This document shows positions 3,299 through 13,622 of a stretch of DNA of 64,000 bases, piece after piece (positions within the stretch are counted from its first letter, which is position 1; every line of letters starts with the position of its first letter). The notes beneath the pieces are model-generated. The model made no database searches. It had not been told where the DNA came from and was given only the letters and a program-made list of their open reading frames with translations. Made by a program: the position numbers and the translations under genes. The stretch comes from an uncultured Desulfobacteraceae bacterium (GTDB taxonomy: Bacteria; Desulfobacterota; Desulfobacteria; Desulfobacterales; UBA5852): the NCBI GenBank assembly GCA_913060875.1, contig CAJXSL010000005.1, positions 62,001-126,000 on the forward strand. Reading direction: 5' to 3'.

Positions 3299-3478
3299 AT
3301 GGCCGCCGTTTCAAGCCAGACCGGAACCTATATCCAACCTTCCCTGCTCCTGGCCTTGAAGCACAACCATCCCACGGCTACGAGTTGATCCAGGAAATTT
3401 CCATGTTTGGTTTCAAGGAAGGGCAGGCCCGGAAGCTGGCCGATTTTATCGCCATGTATAAGGCATCCGAATCAGATT
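3299..3478 (+). pseudogene. Decayed padR copy with frameshift and internal deletion
   Basis: From the ATG at 3299 the reading resembles the intact PadR (YIQPSLLLALK). A one-base loss near 3371-3377 shifts the frame to a TGA. Nucleotide similarity then continues through the ELIQEIS-equivalent region, jumps over about 160 bases, and resumes at the segment encoding KLADFIAMYKASE. The jump joins two occurrences of gcaggccc in the intact gene, as expected from deletion between short direct repeats. Confidence 0.8.
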
Positions 3479-4513: not shown

Positions 4514-4910
4514 GTGTCCTCCTGATTCGGTGTATTTGACTGTTCATGCTAACAACAATACGAAAATTTAGATGCCTGGAAAAAATCGACGGATAACGGT
4601 TCTAAATCGTTGTCAGGGATGGAAGCTGGAAGGGTCACTTCAGCCGGCAACGCCTATCGATGGCCAAGATAAGCTACGTTCCGGTCTGTCTGTAACGGCA
4701 CGAAGTTTTCCGTATTTATACACTATGAGCACGATTCAGGTAAAATGCACGCTTAAAGGCCATTTTCATGCTTGGAAGCTATCTATGTTTTCATCCTAGC
4801 ACAGTGGCCATCACAAACCGTACCGTGATTTTGGACGCTATTTATGGTAGCGCGTGTTCCCTAAATCTTGCTGGCAGAAATAAAAACAGACGGGAGGGGG
4901 GAACCTTATA
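4514..4910. other. Gene-free stretch
   Basis: This is intergenic DNA between the unknown protein at 3626 and the relic at 4911. Short open frames occur on the plus strand but show no coding character or ribosome binding site. I see no repeat or clear promoter. Confidence 0.4.
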
Positions 4911-5067
4911 TGACTTCGATCGCCGCACGGTTGGTCTCCGCTACGGTCATGATCTCCGGCGCGCTACGCAGATCGCCGAACTCGGTTTAGCGGCCCGACC
5001 GGCCCGAGGCGGTCAGGCCTGCTGCTGCCGCGCCGATGATGCCGTCGCAGGTGCCGCCATGCCCGGA
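4911..5067 (-). pseudogene. Fragment of the TiaS-like gene found intact at 12888-13622
   Basis: About 157 bases closely match 13064-13226 in the same orientation, covering the segment around the GHGGTCDG and YIEFGDLR residues. A TAT-to-TAA type change creates an in-frame stop in the YIEFGDLR-equivalent codons, and there is a small indel, so the piece is dead. It is a direct repeat of the intact locus and marks the left edge of the AT-rich island. Confidence 0.8.
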
Positions 5068-5107
5068 AACTGGCCGATTTCATCGCCATGTACAAGGCAT
5101 CCGAATA
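5062..5107 (+). pseudogene. padR 3' fragment
   Basis: Forty-odd bases match the last codons of the intact padR (the KLADFIAMYKASE segment and stop). The fragment is fused directly to the TiaS-like relic, and the shared sequence cccgga at the join suggests a microhomology junction. Confidence 0.7.
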
Positions 5108-5782: not shown

Positions 5783-6907
5783 ATGAAAATACCAACTATT
5801 TTTATCTCTTTGATTATTTTTTATGTAACATTGATTGGTTCGGTAACGGCGGATGAAGTAAAGATACATTTCGCAGGCTTTTCATTCCGAGGAGATTATT
5901 CACAGATAAGTACCAATTACCCAAAAACATTATCAATAAGTAATCAGAAGCTGGCAGATCAAAGAAGTATATTGGACGCAACCTTGGTTGATAAAATCAA
6001 AAATATTAAAATAAAAGGTGGTAATCTTGTTCTTGGAGAGTTGGCCAATCTTGACGATGGATCACTAATCTTAGCTTGTTGCTTAGATACCGAGCTTATT
6101 TCTGTAGAACAATTTGATGATGGCTTTAAATTAGTAATTGATTTAGGTGCACAAGCGTTATTTTTTGATTATAGCAGTATGAAAGTCGTCGCCAGTTACC
6201 CAATTATGGTTGAGCTTATTGACTATCTTCCTATCGAACCTGATGATAAAATTATAACCAATAGAATCGGCGACTTATTGCTATCACGAAAATACAATTT
6301 GAATCTATTCGACGATTTCATAGCCATTCTACAGAAAATAGAAATTAAAAAATCATATAGTAGCTCATTGAAAGTTACCGATGTCCTCCTTGAGGAAAGA
6401 GCTTTTTCCTACCTTCCTCCACGTTTTAGAAATGATCCAAATAATTTTAAAATTTTTATTGCTCAAAATTTAGGTAAGTTCCTTTCAAATAATCAGGGCG
6501 TATCGATACTACCCTATACAAAAGGTTATGATATTGGGAACAAAATAGCTGTTCGGTTCACTGATGCAAAAGTTTTTGAGTTAGATATACCAGAACCGCA
6601 ATTTGCAATCGAACTAACAGTAAGAGGTTTTAAAAAAGTATGTACCGATCAAAAAGCATCAGGTTCATGTTGGGTTTATGGCTCTTTTGCTAAAATTAAA
6701 GTGTTCCAACCTATGCTTGGAAAAGTCTACATGGATGATAAGATCAAACAAGGGGTTAGTAAAATAGTTCCGTCCACACAAAAAACAGTTAACGATTGGC
6801 CGAGTTACCAAAATAGTCTTATGGCCCTATTCAATGATACGACTAAGAAGTTCTCAACGGATAGTAAATATACTAAAGTTAGAAAGGTTATTGAAAAATG
6901 CAAATAA
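5783..6907 (+). CDS. Exported protein of unknown function, first gene of AT-rich envelope island
   Basis: The protein has 374 residues. Residues 1-23 form a signal peptide (lysine, long hydrophobic run, cleavage near VTA-DE), with no lipobox Cys. The mature part is rich in beta-type sequence and contains four Cys (paired CC near residue 103; single Cys near 287 and 295, in a short KKVCTDQKASGSCW loop) plus a late Cys two residues from the end. It is probably periplasmic or outer-membrane associated. I recognise no family. The stop overlaps the next start by 10 bases, so the two are translated together. Codon use and AT content differ sharply from the chromosome around the island. Confidence 0.75.
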   Translation: MKIPTIFISLIIFYVTLIGSVTADEVKIHFAGFSFRGDYSQISTNYPKTLSISNQKLADQRSILDATLVDKIKNIKIKGGNLVLGELANLDDGSLILACCLDTELISVEQFDDGFKLVIDLGAQALFFDYSSMKVVASYPIMVELIDYLPIEPDDKIITNRIGDLLLSRKYNLNLFDDFIAILQKIEIKKSYSSSLKVTDVLLEERAFSYLPPRFRNDPNNFKIFIAQNLGKFLSNNQGVSILPYTKGYDIGNKIAVRFTDAKVFELDIPEPQFAIELTVRGFKKVCTDQKASGSCWVYGSFAKIKVFQPMLGKVYMDDKIKQGVSKIVPSTQKTVNDWPSYQNSLMALFNDTTKKFSTDSKYTKVRKVIEKCK

Positions 6908-7992
6908 AGAGGATTGCATATTTTACTACTATTCTGTTTTTCATAAGCGTCCCGTGTTTTGCAGGCATAGTTAAGCAACAGGGTGTTGGGCAAATCTCCT
7001 ACAGTGGTTGGGGTGGACCCTCTTCTGAGGTAAAACAGGATGCTATTGAAAAGGCAAAAAAAAGCTCTATAGAAAATTATTCCGCTACCTTTTCAACGGC
7101 AAAAATGATGAATTACGAAAAAATACGTAACTCCATCGAAGGCAACCTTGATAGATATATAACAGACTACAAGGTAATAGATGACGATACCGATAAAGAC
7201 GCTAAAAGATACAGTGTCGTAATTGAGGCCTCAATTAACACGTCTCTTATCGAGGTTGAACTACAAAAGGTCTCATCAGTTGAAAATGCATCTCTCGACG
7301 AGAAATCATATCTTAGTTTTGTTTTTGTTGCCCGTGAGGTTGTCTCGAGAAAGGCCTTTGACGCGAGGCGCAGTAAACGTGTAGTGCAAGAATCAACTAC
7401 CGAGGAGCGTGAAGAAGCCTATGTTGATGGAGAGCAAATGGGATATGCCAATGAAACTTTAAAAGATTCCGTCCAAACAACAGGCGGATCAACCTTACAA
7501 AAATCCGACAAAATTGAGTATGATGTAAGTAATGCAGAAGACATTAATGCAACAATGACTGACATTTTCTCACAGGCCGGTTATGAAGTAATTGAGGCTG
7601 ATTATTTGCAGGAAGAAACGGGTAACTTGGTCAATGTGGATGATTTTAAGGAAGATTTTCGTTATGGAGATGACATTTCTGGTTCGACACGTCGTAATGC
7701 GGCCAAAGGGTGCCGTTCGGTTGGCGTTGAGTATTTTGCTATTGGAACTCTTGATGTAGGGGCCAAAGATATAGACCCTGTAAGTGGCATGACAAGGGTG
7801 TTTGTTTCCGTGAATGGAAAAATAATGGATTTACGAGGACGATTTCCGAAAACAGTCGCCTCTGTAGGCCCAGTTCAATACGCCGGGCTTGGGCCAGATC
7901 AAACTGTAGCAAGACGAAATGCTTTGCGCCAGGCTGGCAAGAAAGCTGCTGAAGATTTGACGAACAAATTGCGTGCTAAGAGCATTAAGTAA
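6898..7992 (+). CDS. Exported protein with LPP20/FlgT-N-like segments
   Basis: The protein has 364 residues with a signal peptide ending near CFA-GIV. After it, residues ~25-60 show a Gly motif followed by a helix with spaced Ala (GVGQISY, then DAIEKAKKSSIENY). The same pattern recurs at the C-terminus (AGLGPDQTVARRNALRQAGKKAAEDL). That pattern is typical of LPP20 and FlgT N-terminal domains in envelope proteins. A middle section (about residues 205-310) resembles the alpha/beta fold of CsgG/TolB-N-type domains: a tyrosine-rich strand, then GVEYFAIGTLDVGAKDI. It starts inside the preceding gene and precedes a gene 32 bases on. Function is inferred only as part of an envelope complex. Confidence 0.75.
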   Translation: MQIKRIAYFTTILFFISVPCFAGIVKQQGVGQISYSGWGGPSSEVKQDAIEKAKKSSIENYSATFSTAKMMNYEKIRNSIEGNLDRYITDYKVIDDDTDKDAKRYSVVIEASINTSLIEVELQKVSSVENASLDEKSYLSFVFVAREVVSRKAFDARRSKRVVQESTTEEREEAYVDGEQMGYANETLKDSVQTTGGSTLQKSDKIEYDVSNAEDINATMTDIFSQAGYEVIEADYLQEETGNLVNVDDFKEDFRYGDDISGSTRRNAAKGCRSVGVEYFAIGTLDVGAKDIDPVSGMTRVFVSVNGKIMDLRGRFPKTVASVGPVQYAGLGPDQTVARRNALRQAGKKAAEDLTNKLRAKSIK

Positions 7993-8024
7993 TTTATAAT
8001 TCAAATTTTTAAGGAGAATCTTAG

Positions 8025-8687
8025 ATGAAACACTTAACGATTGCATTGATGATTGTTGTTATGGCTGTTGGAACTTCATTTGCTTTTGGACTCCCGAGTC
8101 TTGGAACTGATAATACGAATCAATCAGGAGTAAACATTGATGATGCAATGAAATCTCAAAGTGATCTCGTTGCTGCGTATGTCGCAGGCAATAAATACGA
8201 CTTGGAGACAAAATCAATAATAGCTGACGCACTTGGACTCAGAGAAGAGGCCGCTGCCTTGATGATGGCATCAGAAAGTATCAACGACGGAAATGTCAAA
8301 GACATCCCTGCTACTCGCGCGAAAACTGAAGATGCTCAGAAGGCTATAGAAAGCAAAATGTCTGATTCTAAGGATCTTTCAGAGGAAGCCAAAATAAAAG
8401 TGGGTGAAAGTCTAGTGTGTCTAACAAAATGTGTTGTTTCCTATAAGCAAGCCTCTGATTTAAGTCAAAGTGCTCTCGATTCTGCTCAAAATGTTGTTAA
8501 AAACTCATCTGTCACGGAAGTTTTTACCGTTAAAAAGAAGCTTGATCCTGTCCTTACAATTGCACCTAAAGTCCCAGGAGACTTGACCTCTGTAGTTGAT
8601 ACCTCGACAAAATATTTAGCATTCGCAAAGTCTGTCGGAGTTGAGCCCCCTGCAGATCTTGAATCAGCTTTGGGCGGTCTTGACTAA
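8025..8687 (+). CDS. Small helical exported protein, possible substrate or structural subunit
   Basis: The protein has 220 residues with a strong ribosome binding site (aaggag). The signal peptide is clear (to about residue 20, SFA-FG). The mature protein is rich in Ala, Ser, Lys and Asp with heptad-like helices and almost no aromatic residues. It carries one Cys pair, CLTKC, near residues 129-133. The composition suggests an elongated helical bundle rather than an enzyme. A hairpin follows the stop, so this gene may be made in different amounts from the genes after it, as is common for secreted structural subunits. I do not recognise the family. Confidence 0.75.
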   Translation: MKHLTIALMIVVMAVGTSFAFGLPSLGTDNTNQSGVNIDDAMKSQSDLVAAYVAGNKYDLETKSIIADALGLREEAAALMMASESINDGNVKDIPATRAKTEDAQKAIESKMSDSKDLSEEAKIKVGESLVCLTKCVVSYKQASDLSQSALDSAQNVVKNSSVTEVFTVKKKLDPVLTIAPKVPGDLTSVVDTSTKYLAFAKSVGVEPPADLESALGGLD

Positions 8688-8694
8688 TTTTTTA

Positions 8695-8727
8695 CAGCCG
8701 GTCATCATTAAAGTTGGTTACCGGCTT
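8695..8727 (+). terminator. Intra-operon hairpin, partial terminator candidate
   Basis: The arms agccggt and accggct are separated by 17 bases and followed by ttaattt. The hairpin sits just after the helical protein gene and before the CsgG/FlgT-like gene, and could reduce read-through or protect the upstream mRNA. Confidence 0.45.
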
Positions 8728-8746
8728 TAATTTATATGGTGTGAGC

Positions 8747-10042
8747 ATGATTAAAAATACGACGAAATTCGCATTCATCGCCCTATTGTTGGTTGCCGTT
8801 AGTGTCGGTTTGTCACATGCTAGTCTTAAAAAGAAGACTGTTATAGCTGAAGGTATAGGTGCATCTCTAAATCAAGCAATCTATGATGCATTGGATGAAG
8901 CTGTTGGACGCGTAAATGGTAAATCAATTGATTCTCACAAACAGCTTGAATCAATCGAAATATCTAAAATTGAAGGCGCTAATGAAAATTATTTTGCCTC
9001 GGAGATGTACCAGGCAAAAGTCAAATCGGCAACAAAAGGGGTTGTTGATAGCTACGAAATACTTTCTAAAAGCAAAGATGGAGATGGACTGTATAAAGTA
9101 AACTTGTCCGTTAATGTTATAAAATTTGTAGCTCGGAATAACAACCGGAAACGAATTGCAGTGTTCCCAATGCGAATTGGGCAAGGCCGGTTCACAATCA
9201 AGGGAGAACCTATTGACAAGGAAAGGGTTGTCCGCCTGGCAACTCAAAATTTAGTAACAACGCTTGTTCAATCACGAAGATTTACCGTCCTTGACAGGGA
9301 ATACATGACAGAAACGGTTGGCGAACAACGTATAGCGATGTCACCCAATGCACCGGTTGAAGAAATGGCGCGCCTTGGGCAGGAAATGGTTGCGGATTAC
9401 ATGATGGTTGGGACGATTGAAAGTCTCGGGTATAAAGAACAAAAAATTAAGATGAAGAGCAGTGGACGTGAGATAATTCAAAAAATGGGAAATGTCGAGA
9501 TTGGCATTCGTTTGGTCGATGTTGCAACTCGGCAGATCGCCTATTCCGATTTTGTCAAATTGCGTGTGTCTGAAGAGGCTATAGAACGTTTTGGTGGAAG
9601 TTTCCGAAGTGAGGGCATCGACGCAAGCATTTCAATGGTGGCAGCCGATAATATCGGACGAAAAATACTCGAAACGATTTATCCGTTGGTCGTTGTGTCC
9701 GTGAATGGTGAAACCCTGACAATAGGCCAGGGTGGCTCCCAGATTAAGAAGGGGGATCTCTTTGAAATCTTTATGTACGGAAAGCGTCTTACCGATCCCT
9801 ATACGGGCGAATTTCTTGGCCGAGATGAAGTTAAGGTCGGCACTATCCAGATAACTCGGGTCAATCCAAAACAATCACATGCCCGTATCATAAAATGCAC
9901 TGTCAATATTAACCAGGAATTTGAACCCAAAAAATTCATTTGTCGTACGCAAACCGGTGCTCCTGACAAAAAACAAATCAAGCGTGAAGAGCGGCGCAAA
10001 GTGAGAGATGAGCGCCGAAAAAAAAGGGATGACGATTGGTAA
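8747..10042 (+). CDS. FlgT/CsgG-like exported protein
   Basis: The protein has 431 residues from the ATG at 8747, chosen because the signal peptide starts there (cleavage near SHA-SL, residue 26). Three parts are visible. Residues 31-125 form an LPP20/FlgT-N-like domain (AEGIGASLNQAIYDALDEAV). Residues 135-312 form a CsgG-like domain (RIAVFPMRIGQG, RRFTVLDRE, ADYMMVGTIESLG). Residues 314-385 form an SH3-like FlgT-C domain (KKGDLFEIF, DPYTGEFLG). The tail is highly basic. This is the domain order of the Vibrio flagellar H-ring protein FlgT, but no flagellar gene is nearby. CsgG itself is a lipoprotein pore; no lipobox Cys is present here. Likely a periplasmic or outer-membrane ring component. 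Confidence 0.8.
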   Translation: MIKNTTKFAFIALLLVAVSVGLSHASLKKKTVIAEGIGASLNQAIYDALDEAVGRVNGKSIDSHKQLESIEISKIEGANENYFASEMYQAKVKSATKGVVDSYEILSKSKDGDGLYKVNLSVNVIKFVARNNNRKRIAVFPMRIGQGRFTIKGEPIDKERVVRLATQNLVTTLVQSRRFTVLDREYMTETVGEQRIAMSPNAPVEEMARLGQEMVADYMMVGTIESLGYKEQKIKMKSSGREIIQKMGNVEIGIRLVDVATRQIAYSDFVKLRVSEEAIERFGGSFRSEGIDASISMVAADNIGRKILETIYPLVVVSVNGETLTIGQGGSQIKKGDLFEIFMYGKRLTDPYTGEFLGRDEVKVGTIQITRVNPKQSHARIIKCTVNINQEFEPKKFICRTQTGAPDKKQIKREERRKVRDERRKKRDDDW

Positions 10043-10062
10043 GTCAACCTTGTGGAGGTCGT

Positions 10063-11400
10063 ATGATGAAAAAGTTAATTATTGCCACTTTATTGCTGTC
10101 ATGTGTGTTAACGTTGTCAGCAAACGCTTCTGGGGTTTTACACGAGTTTGCTGTGGACGAAACACCATCAACATTCATGGAAAAAAGGAGTGTTCGAGAC
10201 AGTATTGATGAGTTTCTTTCGTCAAAAGGTTTTTACGAAGGTAAGAATTCACGTTCCAAAGGCAGCGATATATTTATTGCTGTCGGTACGGGCGTTATAC
10301 AGGCACAACGAAATAGTCCTGCTTATATGAACTCTAGGATTAATGCGTTTGACAAAGCCATGATGTACGCTAAAAAGCAGATGGCTGAATACATTGGTGT
10401 TGAAATTAAGAATAACATTGTAACCGATTATGCTGAGGGTGAGTCGCCAACTGCACGAAAAAAGCGTCAAGCAGACGCGGTTGTTGCCTTGGAAGAACCT
10501 GGCCTTATTGAAAAAACAGAAGCTTTGATCAATGCGAAGCTGGATCAACTGCTTGAGGAGGAAGGGGTCGATTTAACACAACCCGTACCTGATGAAGTCG
10601 TTCAAAAGGTCTTAACATCCGAAGAGTTTGAAAAAACAATCAAATCAGTTTCTAAAGCAAGAATTGTCGGCCTGCAGACATATAAAGTTTTCGAAGAATC
10701 TCCTGACGGTTCAAAAGGGCAGATCGGCGTGATTGCAGTATACAGCGACAAGCTATATCAGATGGCAAATGCCCTTTTCAGCGGAAACTTTTCTAACCTA
10801 CCTAAGGGAACACCAAGGAAAGCAGTTGTGAAACAAATCCCCAAGGATGTGAATGTTCTCTTGAGCACTTTTGGTGTGCAACAAAAAACCGATGAAAACG
10901 GCCAGTTAGTACTTGTGGCATTTGGCCAAGGTGTACCTAAAACCAAAAGCACCCGTTCTCTTGACGCCGCCTATGAAAAGGCCAAGCTTGACGCTATTGG
11001 AAATTTAAGGTCCTTTGCTGGTGAAATTGTTCTGGTTGAAGGTGAGGTTAACAAGTTTGAATCTGTCAAAGAATTAGAGGACGGGATGGAACAGTATGAA
11101 AACGAGGAGTTTTTCAGAGACAAGGTTGAGGCCAAAGCAAAATCTTTGAAAATCTCTGGAATACAAAAAATCCATCGCTGGCAATCGGTTCATCCATTAA
11201 CCAAAAAGCCTGTAGTTGGTGTTGTTATCTCATGGTCACCTAAGTCAGCAACTGATGCCGGTAAATTTGCACAAAAGATGAATAAACAACCTAATAAGGT
11301 GGTAAAACCATCATCTTCTAGTGTGGTTTATAACTCCAGTAGCGGTCAAAGTGGAAGTTATAGTAAGTCCGGAGCTACCGCAGATGAAGATTCTTTCTAA
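10063..11400 (+). CDS. Exported protein with two LPP20-like segments
   Basis: The protein has 445 residues; GGAGG lies 4 bases before the ATG at 10063 (7 before a second ATG). The signal peptide ends near NASG, residue 24. Two stretches share a Gly-then-Ala-helix pattern: one near residues 65-110 (IFIAVGTGVIQAQ, then INAFDKAMMYAKKQMAEYIG) and one near 280-325 (LVLVAFGQGV, then SLDAAYEKAKLDAIGNLRSF). This suggests duplication of an LPP20-type domain. The C-terminal 35 residues are low-complexity Ser/Gly/Lys. It starts 20 bases after the CsgG/FlgT-like gene and ends 10 bases before the next one. The function is unknown but the protein fits the same envelope assembly. Confidence 0.75.
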   Translation: MMKKLIIATLLLSCVLTLSANASGVLHEFAVDETPSTFMEKRSVRDSIDEFLSSKGFYEGKNSRSKGSDIFIAVGTGVIQAQRNSPAYMNSRINAFDKAMMYAKKQMAEYIGVEIKNNIVTDYAEGESPTARKKRQADAVVALEEPGLIEKTEALINAKLDQLLEEEGVDLTQPVPDEVVQKVLTSEEFEKTIKSVSKARIVGLQTYKVFEESPDGSKGQIGVIAVYSDKLYQMANALFSGNFSNLPKGTPRKAVVKQIPKDVNVLLSTFGVQQKTDENGQLVLVAFGQGVPKTKSTRSLDAAYEKAKLDAIGNLRSFAGEIVLVEGEVNKFESVKELEDGMEQYENEEFFRDKVEAKAKSLKISGIQKIHRWQSVHPLTKKPVVGVVISWSPKSATDAGKFAQKMNKQPNKVVKPSSSSVVYNSSSGQSGSYSKSGATADEDSF

Positions 11401-11410
11401 CGGACACTTT

Positions 11411-12658
11411 ATGCAAAATCTATATAGACTGATATTTGGGCTACTTTTGATCGTATGGAGTGTCCCCAGCGCATCTGCTGGGGACACTCCACATCATTAT
11501 TTTAAATTGAACAAGCAGAAAATTTTGTCCAAAAACCATTCAGAGATGAATGGTTTTGTTTTTGCGGTGGGCCGTGCTGTCGCAAGTGATCATGATAACG
11601 CTTTAAAAGAGCGTACAATGCAAAAAGCTCGACTGATCGCGATTGGCAACCTAACGAAACCGATTTCACATATTTCTGGATGGCCCTTTTTAGAAAATCT
11701 ACAGTTGCAGCGTGAAGTTGTGCAAAACTACGCGACGCTTAAAGCTCAAAAATTTCACGTGAAAAATCTCCAGGCTGTTTATAGAGATTGTCAGGGGATC
11801 TCATGTACTGTCGTAGTGGCCGCACCAGCTCGAGCAATCGATATCAAGCATCTATATTGGGTCGATATCAGAAATTCATTTGACAGAGCGTACGAAGCAG
11901 GTGATGAACGCATTCCCTTAAGTGTCTATTTTGAGATATGCGCGGAAAACAGACTTGATCAAGTGCTAAATGACATCTCTCATAGATGGGGAGACAGATA
12001 CGGCGTAAATGTTCAAAAGGTCATCCAAGGTCACTATATTGATACTCCTGCCTTTCTTTGGCGGCAAGGGAAAAGGTTGCCAGGAAATAAGGTCGCAACT
12101 CTTGGATTTCAGGATCTAATGAAATTACTTGAACTCGACCCTTACGATCCTGTTGTTCTTTACTTTTTAGGCCAAAATGCAGAATCAGTCGGGCGGAATC
12201 GTTTGGCGCAAATGTTTTATTCAAGAGCCCTTCTTTGGGAAATAGATCCCGAATACAACAAACGGTGTCGACAATTGATTAATAGTAATTTGTTTATTAA
12301 CAAGTCGGAACCGCTAAATGGTTTGGAGAAGGAATTACAAAAGAAAGCTATAGCCATTTATGGAAATGAGGGCCCATTTGAGGCAGGCTTGGCAAATTTG
12401 GTTTTTCTTAGTTTGGGAACACTTCCTCTCATTGGTTCATCAGATACTCACGTAACATCAATATATTCAGATAATGTAAGTGTCCATGATTTCATTAATA
12501 ATAATCCGACAGCGACTGCTTTTGCTACGGTCTCTAAAATTTTTATGGAACGTGGCCAATGGGAGTACGCTTTACCTTTTGCAATTCAAGCCAGCCAAAT
12601 GGATGGAGGGTATGCAGGTTTGCGAAAGACTGTACTTAATTTTGCTACACGGGAATAA
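11411..12658 (+). CDS. Exported LPP20/TPR-like protein, last gene of island operon
   Basis: The protein has 415 residues from the ATG at 11411, where a signal peptide begins (cleavage near SASA-GD). Residues ~45-100 repeat the Gly/Ala-helix pattern of its neighbours (NGFVFAVGRAVAS, then MQKARLIAIGNL). The second half has helical pairs resembling degenerate TPRs (VVLYFLGQNAESVGRNRLAQMFYSRALL, about residues 240-270; WEYALPFAIQASQMDGG near the end). A perfect 15-bp stem lies inside the signal-peptide codons. Such helical repeats usually serve as scaffolds. A strong terminator follows at 12805. Confidence 0.75.
   Translation: MQNLYRLIFGLLLIVWSVPSASAGDTPHHYFKLNKQKILSKNHSEMNGFVFAVGRAVASDHDNALKERTMQKARLIAIGNLTKPISHISGWPFLENLQLQREVVQNYATLKAQKFHVKNLQAVYRDCQGISCTVVVAAPARAIDIKHLYWVDIRNSFDRAYEAGDERIPLSVYFEICAENRLDQVLNDISHRWGDRYGVNVQKVIQGHYIDTPAFLWRQGKRLPGNKVATLGFQDLMKLLELDPYDPVVLYFLGQNAESVGRNRLAQMFYSRALLWEIDPEYNKRCRQLINSNLFINKSEPLNGLEKELQKKAIAIYGNEGPFEAGLANLVFLSLGTLPLIGSSDTHVTSIYSDNVSVHDFINNNPTATAFATVSKIFMERGQWEYALPFAIQASQMDGGYAGLRKTVLNFATRE
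11456..11491 (+). promoter_or_regulatory. Perfect 15-bp hairpin inside the signal-peptide codons
   Basis: The left arm at 11456-11470 and right arm at 11477-11491 are exact complements around the 6-base loop gcatct. It is a GC-rich structure in an otherwise AT-rich gene, 45 bases after the start codon, so it could slow ribosomes or define an mRNA processing site. Confidence 0.5.
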
Positions 12659-12887: not shown

Positions 12888-13622
12888 TCACGCGGTTCGA
12901 TGGGCGACTTTACGGCGTTTGCAATAGAGGTTTTCCCACACGCCCTCGCTTTTGGGGCGCACCAGCAGGACCGGCCGGTGCCCCATGAGGCGCGGCCGGA
13001 GCCAGCGGTTGGTCAACACCCGGTCTCCGGGGGCAGGCATCCGGGCATCGCGGTCTTCCGCAATGACGTCAATCGCCGCCCGGTTGATCTCCGCTACGGT
13101 CATGATCTCAGGAGCGCTGCGCAGATCGCCGAACTCGATATAGCGGCCCGACCAGCCCGAGGCCGTCAGGCCTACGGCTGCCGCCGCGCCGATGATGCCG
13201 TCGCAGGTGCCGCCGTGTCCGGACAGATGAGCGCCCTTGGCCCTGTCCATGGCCTCCGCCTGGGTGCTTACCGCGTGGGTGCAGCGGCGGCCGAAAGCCA
13301 TCAGGGCCGGCAGGGCCGGGCTGTCTTCGGCTATGACACAGAGTCCCGGATCGCTGCCCTCGGCCGCATGACGGCCAAGGTGGTCCACCGCCCGCTCGAT
13401 AACAGGGGTAATCTGGTCGGCGTCGGCCATCTCCAGCACCATACAGGCCGCGCTGTTGTGGGACGTATAAGGGATGTCGTCGCACACCAGCAGCTGCTGC
13501 CGGACCACCCCCTGGCAGCGGCATCCTTCCGGTAAATGAGGTTGAAACCAGCGGACCACCTTTCCAGTGCCATAGTCCGAATCCTTCGCGTCCGTATCGT
13601 CGAATCCAACAAAAACTCGCAT
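12888..13622 (-). CDS. TiaS-like FDDTD-motif protein
   Basis: The protein has 244 residues from the ATG at 13622. Upstream in-frame codons offer only a TTG. The N-terminus MRVFVGFDDTDAKDSDYG carries the FDDTD motif of the kinase-like domain of archaeal tRNA(Ile2) agmatinylcytidine synthase (TiaS). The later GHGGTCDGIIGAAAAVGLTASG is a glycine-rich segment also seen in that group. Archaeal TiaS is about 420 residues, so this protein has only the N-terminal region and probably a different role in bacteria, perhaps nucleotide-dependent phosphorylation. It is a single gene just right of the AT-rich island. A mutated 157-bp piece of it lies on the island's left side. Confidence 0.65.
   Translation of the reverse strand: MRVFVGFDDTDAKDSDYGTGKVVRWFQPHLPEGCRCQGVVRQQLLVCDDIPYTSHNSAACMVLEMADADQITPVIERAVDHLGRHAAEGSDPGLCVIAEDSPALPALMAFGRRCTHAVSTQAEAMDRAKGAHLSGHGGTCDGIIGAAAAVGLTASGWSGRYIEFGDLRSAPEIMTVAEINRAAIDVIAEDRDARMPAPGDRVLTNRWLRPRLMGHRPVLLVRPKSEGVWENLYCKRRKVAHRTA

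Follow-up and report, generated by a model that had tools for sequence, protein, structure and literature searches.

In a 64,000-nucleotide stretch from an uncultured Desulfobacteraceae bacterium (assembly GCA_913060875.1, contig CAJXSL010000005.1, positions 62,001 to 126,000; hereafter the window), positions 5783-12658 hold six co-directional open reading frames (ORFs) on the + strand, here termed g1 to g6 (Table 1). The first two genes overlap by 10 bp, the remaining intergenic gaps measure 10-59 bp, and all six products begin with a Sec signal peptide as judged by eye. G+C content of the block is 40%, compared with 51% in the left and 58% in the right flank. An initial annotation of this DNA had described a tightly packed, one-directional operon for exported proteins that differs in composition from the chromosome, and in these points it was right. 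The low G+C content is a property of this host copy only; elsewhere the operon has about the G+C content of its surroundings. The same annotation took all six genes as one unit built around g4, a view that the related loci do not bear out.

Table 1. Genes, domains and motifs of the six-gene block and its left flank (window coordinates).
Feature	Position	Strand	Description
g1	5783..6907	+	exported, 374 aa; two tandem CsgG/LptE/HpaA-like domains (modelled); core gene
g2	6898..7992	+	exported, 364 aa; FlgT-N (LPP20/SHS2)-like and FlgT-M (CsgG/TolB_N)-like domains (modelled); core gene
g3	8025..8687	+	exported, 220 aa, Ala/Leu-rich, probably helical; core gene
g4	8747..10042	+	exported LPP20-CsgG-like protein; basic disordered linker and acidic-Trp tail; start refined
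g4 LPP20-like domain	8828..9094	+	Pfam PF02169, residues 27-115, E 5e-4, below cut-off
g4 CsgG-like domain	9146..9586	+	Pfam PF03783, residues 133-279; without CsgG-type membrane hairpins
g4 C-terminal tail RDDDW	10025..10039	+	
g5	10063..11400	+	exported DUF6844 protein, Pfam PF20891, E 5.3e-13; accessory partner; start refined
g5 DUF6844 domain	10504..10776	+	
g5 C-terminal tail DEDSF	11383..11397	+	
g6	11411..12658	+	exported, 415 aa; N-terminal Gly/Ala-helix motif, C-terminal helical-repeat-like part; accessory; start refined
Duplicated piece of right-flank gene, left of block	4910..5067	.	probable recombination footprint

Loci were collected via g2, and iterated profiles were used for the neighbouring genes. 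In all 39 distinct loci found in this way g1, g2 and g3 are consecutive, and g4 lies in or beside the operon in 33 of them; the remaining six, all alteromonad, contain no g4, so that a central place of g4 in the operon is not supported. As the flanks sort into many unrelated groups, chance synteny does not explain the gene order. The divergence of the four families g1 to g4 is correlated (r 0.88-0.97, a level reached in 0 of 2000 label permutations). Co-conservation of at least four genes had been proposed as a sign of a single system, and g1 to g4 display it, so that the notion of one co-inherited system of exported envelope proteins is supported. The conserved unit is g1-g2-g3-g4, and g5 and g6 are accessory: the two occur together in only one other locus, L009 from a Desulfobacteraceae metagenome-assembled genome (MAG), which is the only one besides the window with all six genes and the only one with a g6 homologue, which is shorter there.

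An alignment search with g2 yielded 14 loci among 84,980 species genomes, hosted by a Desulfobacteraceae MAG, Burkholderiaceae, Dyella, Nevskiaceae, two Alteromonadaceae-type genomes, a Geobacter MAG, Candidatus Proruminimicrobium and an Omnitrophota MAG. Full-length g2 is present in 21 of 399 sampled genomes of one Burkholderiales family, in 8 of 397 of the Alteromonas-type family and in 2 of 395 of the window's phylum, where one fragment was also found, and each neighbourhood of full-length g2 fetched from the sampled families contains g1-g2-g3. About 40 genomes of the same phylum gave weak matches of the g2 profile that cover no more than the first 130 residues; these were classed as generic FlgT-like proteins, 21 of which were read, and left out. 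The operon is widespread across bacteria but rare. Two different versions of the g1-g4 operon reside in the genome of Pandoraea anapnoica (L089 on G499:C19 and L014 on G499:C20). Initially, g4 was detected on megaplasmids or chromids of Azospirillum, Caballeronia and Cupriavidus metallidurans CH34, and the latter two carry g1, g2, g3 and g4 together. Plasmids were nevertheless rejected as the main vehicle, since g2 was found only on large replicons of Cupriavidus and Caballeronia, and so was a phage or defence origin, since searches of phages, viral contigs, PHROGs and PADLOC gave no match. In agreement with the initial annotation, no flagellar genes occur in the operon or adjacent to it in the loci read; the whole genome was not searched for flagella.

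The most specific feature of the system, overlooked in the initial annotation, is an acidic-aromatic tail at the extreme C-terminus of some of its proteins. In each of the 33 complete g4 homologues the last residue is aromatic and an acidic residue stands no more than three positions before it (for example DEDW, DSNW, DDANW, ESDY, TDDW, AEDW, QDDKW, EDDW and DDW), and the first 30 of these sequences make up 15 clusters at 70% identity. An acidic-Phe tail is found on all four DUF6844 proteins seen (DEDSF, DEDDF, NADDF, DPDAF) and on a small LPP20-like exported partner in seven of seven cases (HADEF, HADDF, LADDF). Both in g4 and in the second exported partner the tail follows a low-complexity linker. 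A stricter tail pattern matches 25 of 831 locus ORFs, 22 of which belong to the system while three are unrelated, and the tail is absent from all 21 generic FlgT-like proteins of the same phylum that served as controls.

None of the six products matches anything in NCBIfam, PADLOC or PHROGs, and Pfam recognizes only g4 and g5, leaving g1-g3 with no family match in these four libraries. Structures of g1 and g2 were predicted as single chains with AlphaFold2 and compared with the Protein Data Bank (PDB) by Foldseek. The g1 model is confident (mean predicted local distance difference test score, pLDDT, 89; predicted template modelling score, pTM, 0.84), the order of strands and helices repeats within it, and its top matches are CsgG (1.9e-6), HpaA, FlgT and LptE (E 2e-6 to 1e-4); we read g1 as two tandem CsgG-like domains on the strength of this model. 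Within domains the g2 model is of good quality (pTM 0.50). FlgT structures (8z5n, 9.5e-7; 3w1e, 3.2e-6) take the first two places among all PDB matches of g2, ahead of Lpp20, TolB, PelC and GNA1162, and the predicted architecture is FlgT-like, combining an LPP20 and a CsgG-like domain. When the profiles of g1, g2, g4 and g5 were compared among themselves, no significant match emerged; the kinship of g1, g2 and g4 is thus one of fold level only, and the link between the folds comes from the structure models. LPP20, CsgG and FlgT folds, which the initial annotation had expected, are hence seen in the models of g1 and g2 and, by Pfam, in g4. Its Gly/Ala-helix pattern, said to recur in at least three other products, stands for g2, where the model contains an LPP20-like domain; inspection by eye shows it in g5 and g6 as well, but profile comparison did not confirm it there.

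For g4 an order LPP20/FlgT-N, CsgG-like, FlgT-C had been suggested, and Pfam confirms that LPP20 precedes CsgG. The CsgG domain is well founded (E 6.8e-11, 42.3 bits versus a curated cut-off of 20.8; PDB match to CsgG with E 1.5e-3) and the LPP20 domain is found below its cut-off (20.9 versus 25.9 bits), while the third, FlgT-C/SH3-like domain gave only a weak match to TsaP in the PDB search (E 2e-3). FlgT_M matches one relative (1e-3). A lipobox is detected by regular expression in 22 of 30 relatives. In one subtype (L033, 741-2913, and L128-L130) g4 seems to bear an extra N-terminal domain resembling the adjacent small tailed partner, as if duplicated. A second weak CsgG-family match lies elsewhere in the window's genome (G000:C6:74137-74292).

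The g3 proteins have no Pfam family, contain 12-20% N+Q+G and show no visible curlin repeats. In most of the alteromonad loci without g4, g3 is a lipoprotein, and in these loci it features an acidic-Trp or Trp-acidic motif near its C-terminus (e.g. STVDW, SVSDWG, SESDWGTEETL), a link to the tail that is suggestive only. Three of the six loci without g4 feature a papain-like protease with DDFF motifs next to g1-g2-g3, namely a divergent exported Peptidase_C1 protein with a linker and DDFF/DDDFF motifs (L017, 7347-8729, - strand; L020, 7318-8622, - strand; L124, 9780-11003); its inclusion in the tail theme is likewise no more than suggestive. Solo homologues of g3 reside on secondary replicons of several Burkholderia species and one Caballeronia (L131-L134), with no g1, g2 or g4 nearby.

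By the Pfam cut-off g5 is a member of DUF6844 (PF20891; 49.4 bits versus 27), a family without described function on which no paper was found in the open-access literature. A first g5-based scan gave no matches; besides the window, the family was seen in L009, in Azospirillum and in genome G122, and none of the other 95 related genomes searched contains it. On plasmid p1 of Azospirillum sp. TSH100 (L003, 5441-9122), an ADDF-tailed DUF6844 gene is clustered with ycfL-like, lpoB-like and FlgT-like genes in the absence of g1-g3. In g6, a perfect 16-bp inverted repeat (11456-11491) falls into the signal-peptide region; it looked notable at first but, being unique in the genome and inside g6, was set aside.

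FlgT of the Vibrio flagellar H ring is one of the closest known systems. It is the best structural match of g2 and among those of g1, and g2 and g4 share its architecture of N (LPP20/SHS2) and M (CsgG-like) domains. However, g2 lacks the third domain, the companions g1 and g3 have no flagellar counterpart, the operon contains no flagellar genes and the FlgT-like controls are untailed. FlgP and Lpp20, ring proteins of the SHS2 fold, resemble the system in the LPP20-like domain, but the ring-forming beta-hairpin insert of FlgP was not seen and the g2 model has a second helix in its place.

The reading we favour, tentatively and with not quite an even chance of being correct, is that of a tail-docked, outer membrane-linked periplasmic scaffold or ring with g1-g4 as its core and without a secretion pore of its own. 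The products of g1 to g4 would form this scaffold or ring, g1 and g2 would supply stacked layers of the CsgG/FlgT type, and a lipoprotein member would hold the structure beneath the outer membrane. The tails of g4 and of g5 or the small partner may act as short linear motifs by which these subunits attach to the core, much as the tail of SSB docks partner proteins. A precedent for rings in the LPP20/SHS2 family is provided by FlgP and FlgT, the former of which forms concentric rings (PMC12222027). It is also conceivable, though rather doubtful, that a three-protein core of tandem-CsgG g1, FlgT-like g2 and helical g3 recruits its clients by a C-terminal acidic-aromatic code, with DDW on the CsgG-like lipoprotein, DDF on DUF6844 and LPP20 partners and possibly DDFF on the papain-like protease; this would amount to a periplasmic docking system based on short linear motifs and to a new class of envelope machine in several phyla.

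Several points weigh against a scaffold or ring with docked tails. The models are of single chains of g1 and g2, and inter-domain confidence in the g2 model is moderate. The CsgG-like fold is shared by LptE, HpaA and LpoB, which are not ring proteins. The window g4 itself has no lipobox, g3 homologues exist alone in Burkholderia, and co-occurrence in the reverse direction, i.e. not via g2, was tested in the plasmid collection only. Tailed DUF6844 proteins are also found without g1-g3 (Azospirillum L003 and G122), so that g1 and g2 may not be the receptor, which may lie elsewhere.

This last observation counts in favour of an alternative in which the tail is read by a housekeeping envelope factor, be it a PDZ protease or chaperone or the beta-barrel assembly machinery (BAM), and thus serves as a sorting or quality-control signal rather than for docking within the system. 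Such factors typically have ligands with an aromatic residue at the C-terminus, and the papain-like protease with internal DDFF motifs beside three g4-less loci points in the same direction. Yet generic FlgT-like proteins of the same envelope type are untailed, and the tail is preceded by a low-complexity linker instead of a beta strand; we regard this alternative as unlikely.

A role in envelope growth, with g4 as an LpoB-like lipoprotein that reaches a periplasmic peptidoglycan synthase and with g1, g2, g3 and DUF6844 proteins as partners, appears unlikely as well. LpoB and YcfL belong to the same fold class, and the LpoB profile matches six of nine g4 homologues (best 4e-6); the window g4 itself stays just below the cut-off for PF13036 (21.9 versus 22.3 bits, E 1.7e-4) and the relative in L014 far below that for TIGR02722 (21.9 versus 110.6, E 1e-4). 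Genes resembling lpoB and ycfL adjoin those for DUF6844 and a FlgT-like protein in Azospirillum, and an extra gene for a PEGA-domain protein is present in L018 and L021, in one of the two with an LpoB match below cut-off. However, LpoB and CsgG share one fold and the LpoB match may be purely structural, g4 is much larger than LpoB, there is no consistent link to a synthase, penicillin-binding protein or enzyme of the cell wall, and in contrast to core regulators of the wall the operon is found in few members of a family.

Secretion and anchoring after the manner of CsgG or HfaB, with g4 forming a channel or gate in the outer membrane and g3, or some other protein, as the exported surface component, comes close to the envelope assembly or secretion complex with a possible small helical substrate that the initial annotation envisaged, and we consider it improbable. 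It is favoured by the CsgG domain of g4 and the frequent lipobox in its relatives. In its two CsgG-like domains g1 also resembles these lipoproteins. The CsgG-like protein HfaB is required to place HfaA and HfaD at the cell surface (PMC6707917). On the other hand, g4 differs from these lipoproteins by an extra LPP20 domain, a C-terminal domain and the tail, and neither CsgE/F/A nor HfaA/D partners, nor any amyloid-like substrate, were found in the loci. CsgG has two amphipathic transmembrane beta-hairpins per subunit, from which its 36-strand barrel is built. When the g4 family was aligned with CsgG using the generally known limits of these hairpins, the segments corresponding to the E. coli hairpins of 22 and 26 residues proved to be 6-18 and 4-25 residues long, polar and unconserved. 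With these hairpins shortened, polar or missing, a CsgG-type secretion pore was rejected for g4, and the secretion reading as a whole is weak because there is in addition no barrel-like protein among the operon products and six alteromonad loci lack g4 entirely. A function of g3 as secreted substrate is unsupported, given that this probably helical protein co-varies with g1, g2 and g4, lacks curlin-like repeats and, in loci without g4, often carries the acidic-Trp motif as a lipoprotein. Finally, that independent exported proteins merely share an island without common function, as solo g3 homologues and the variation of g5 and g6 between loci might suggest, is very improbable and largely refuted for g1-g4 because their order is conserved amid unrelated flanks with strongly correlated divergence.

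As to the origin of the window copy, the closest relative is L009 from an AT-rich Desulfobacteraceae bacterium (33% G+C), with g2 58% identical. Left of the block, the duplicated piece consists of 132 nt with 87% identity to 13063-13194 and 47 nt with 94% identity to 13177-13223. The left flank of the block is a mosaic of these fragments copied from the right-flank gene (4910-5067 and 13063-13223, 87-94%) and of one from a site near 3424 (3424-3472 and 5058-5106, 92%), and is probably an insertion scar. The presence of right-flank-gene fragments on the left points to acquisition by recombination, and the operon is horizontally mobile. Genomes of the same genus lack the right-flank gene and offer no clean empty site for comparison.

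Although the operon is made of known parts, neither the gene set nor three of its families nor the tail is described in the libraries and open-access papers searched, where no paper on g1-g4 was found. There is a real chance that the operon is a kind of its own rather than a variant of an assembly with FlgT/CsgG folds. CsgG, FlgT and LPP20 folds recur in outer membrane-linked machines such as the flagellar H ring, the basal disk, the curli channel and the holdfast anchor. The operon adds a further gene set made of these folds, whose genes stay together in genomes of at least Desulfobacterota, Beta- and Gammaproteobacteria, Candidatus Proruminimicrobium and Omnitrophota, and the shared tail provides a concrete, testable handle on the question of whether bacteria dock periplasmic subunits by a C-terminal motif code.

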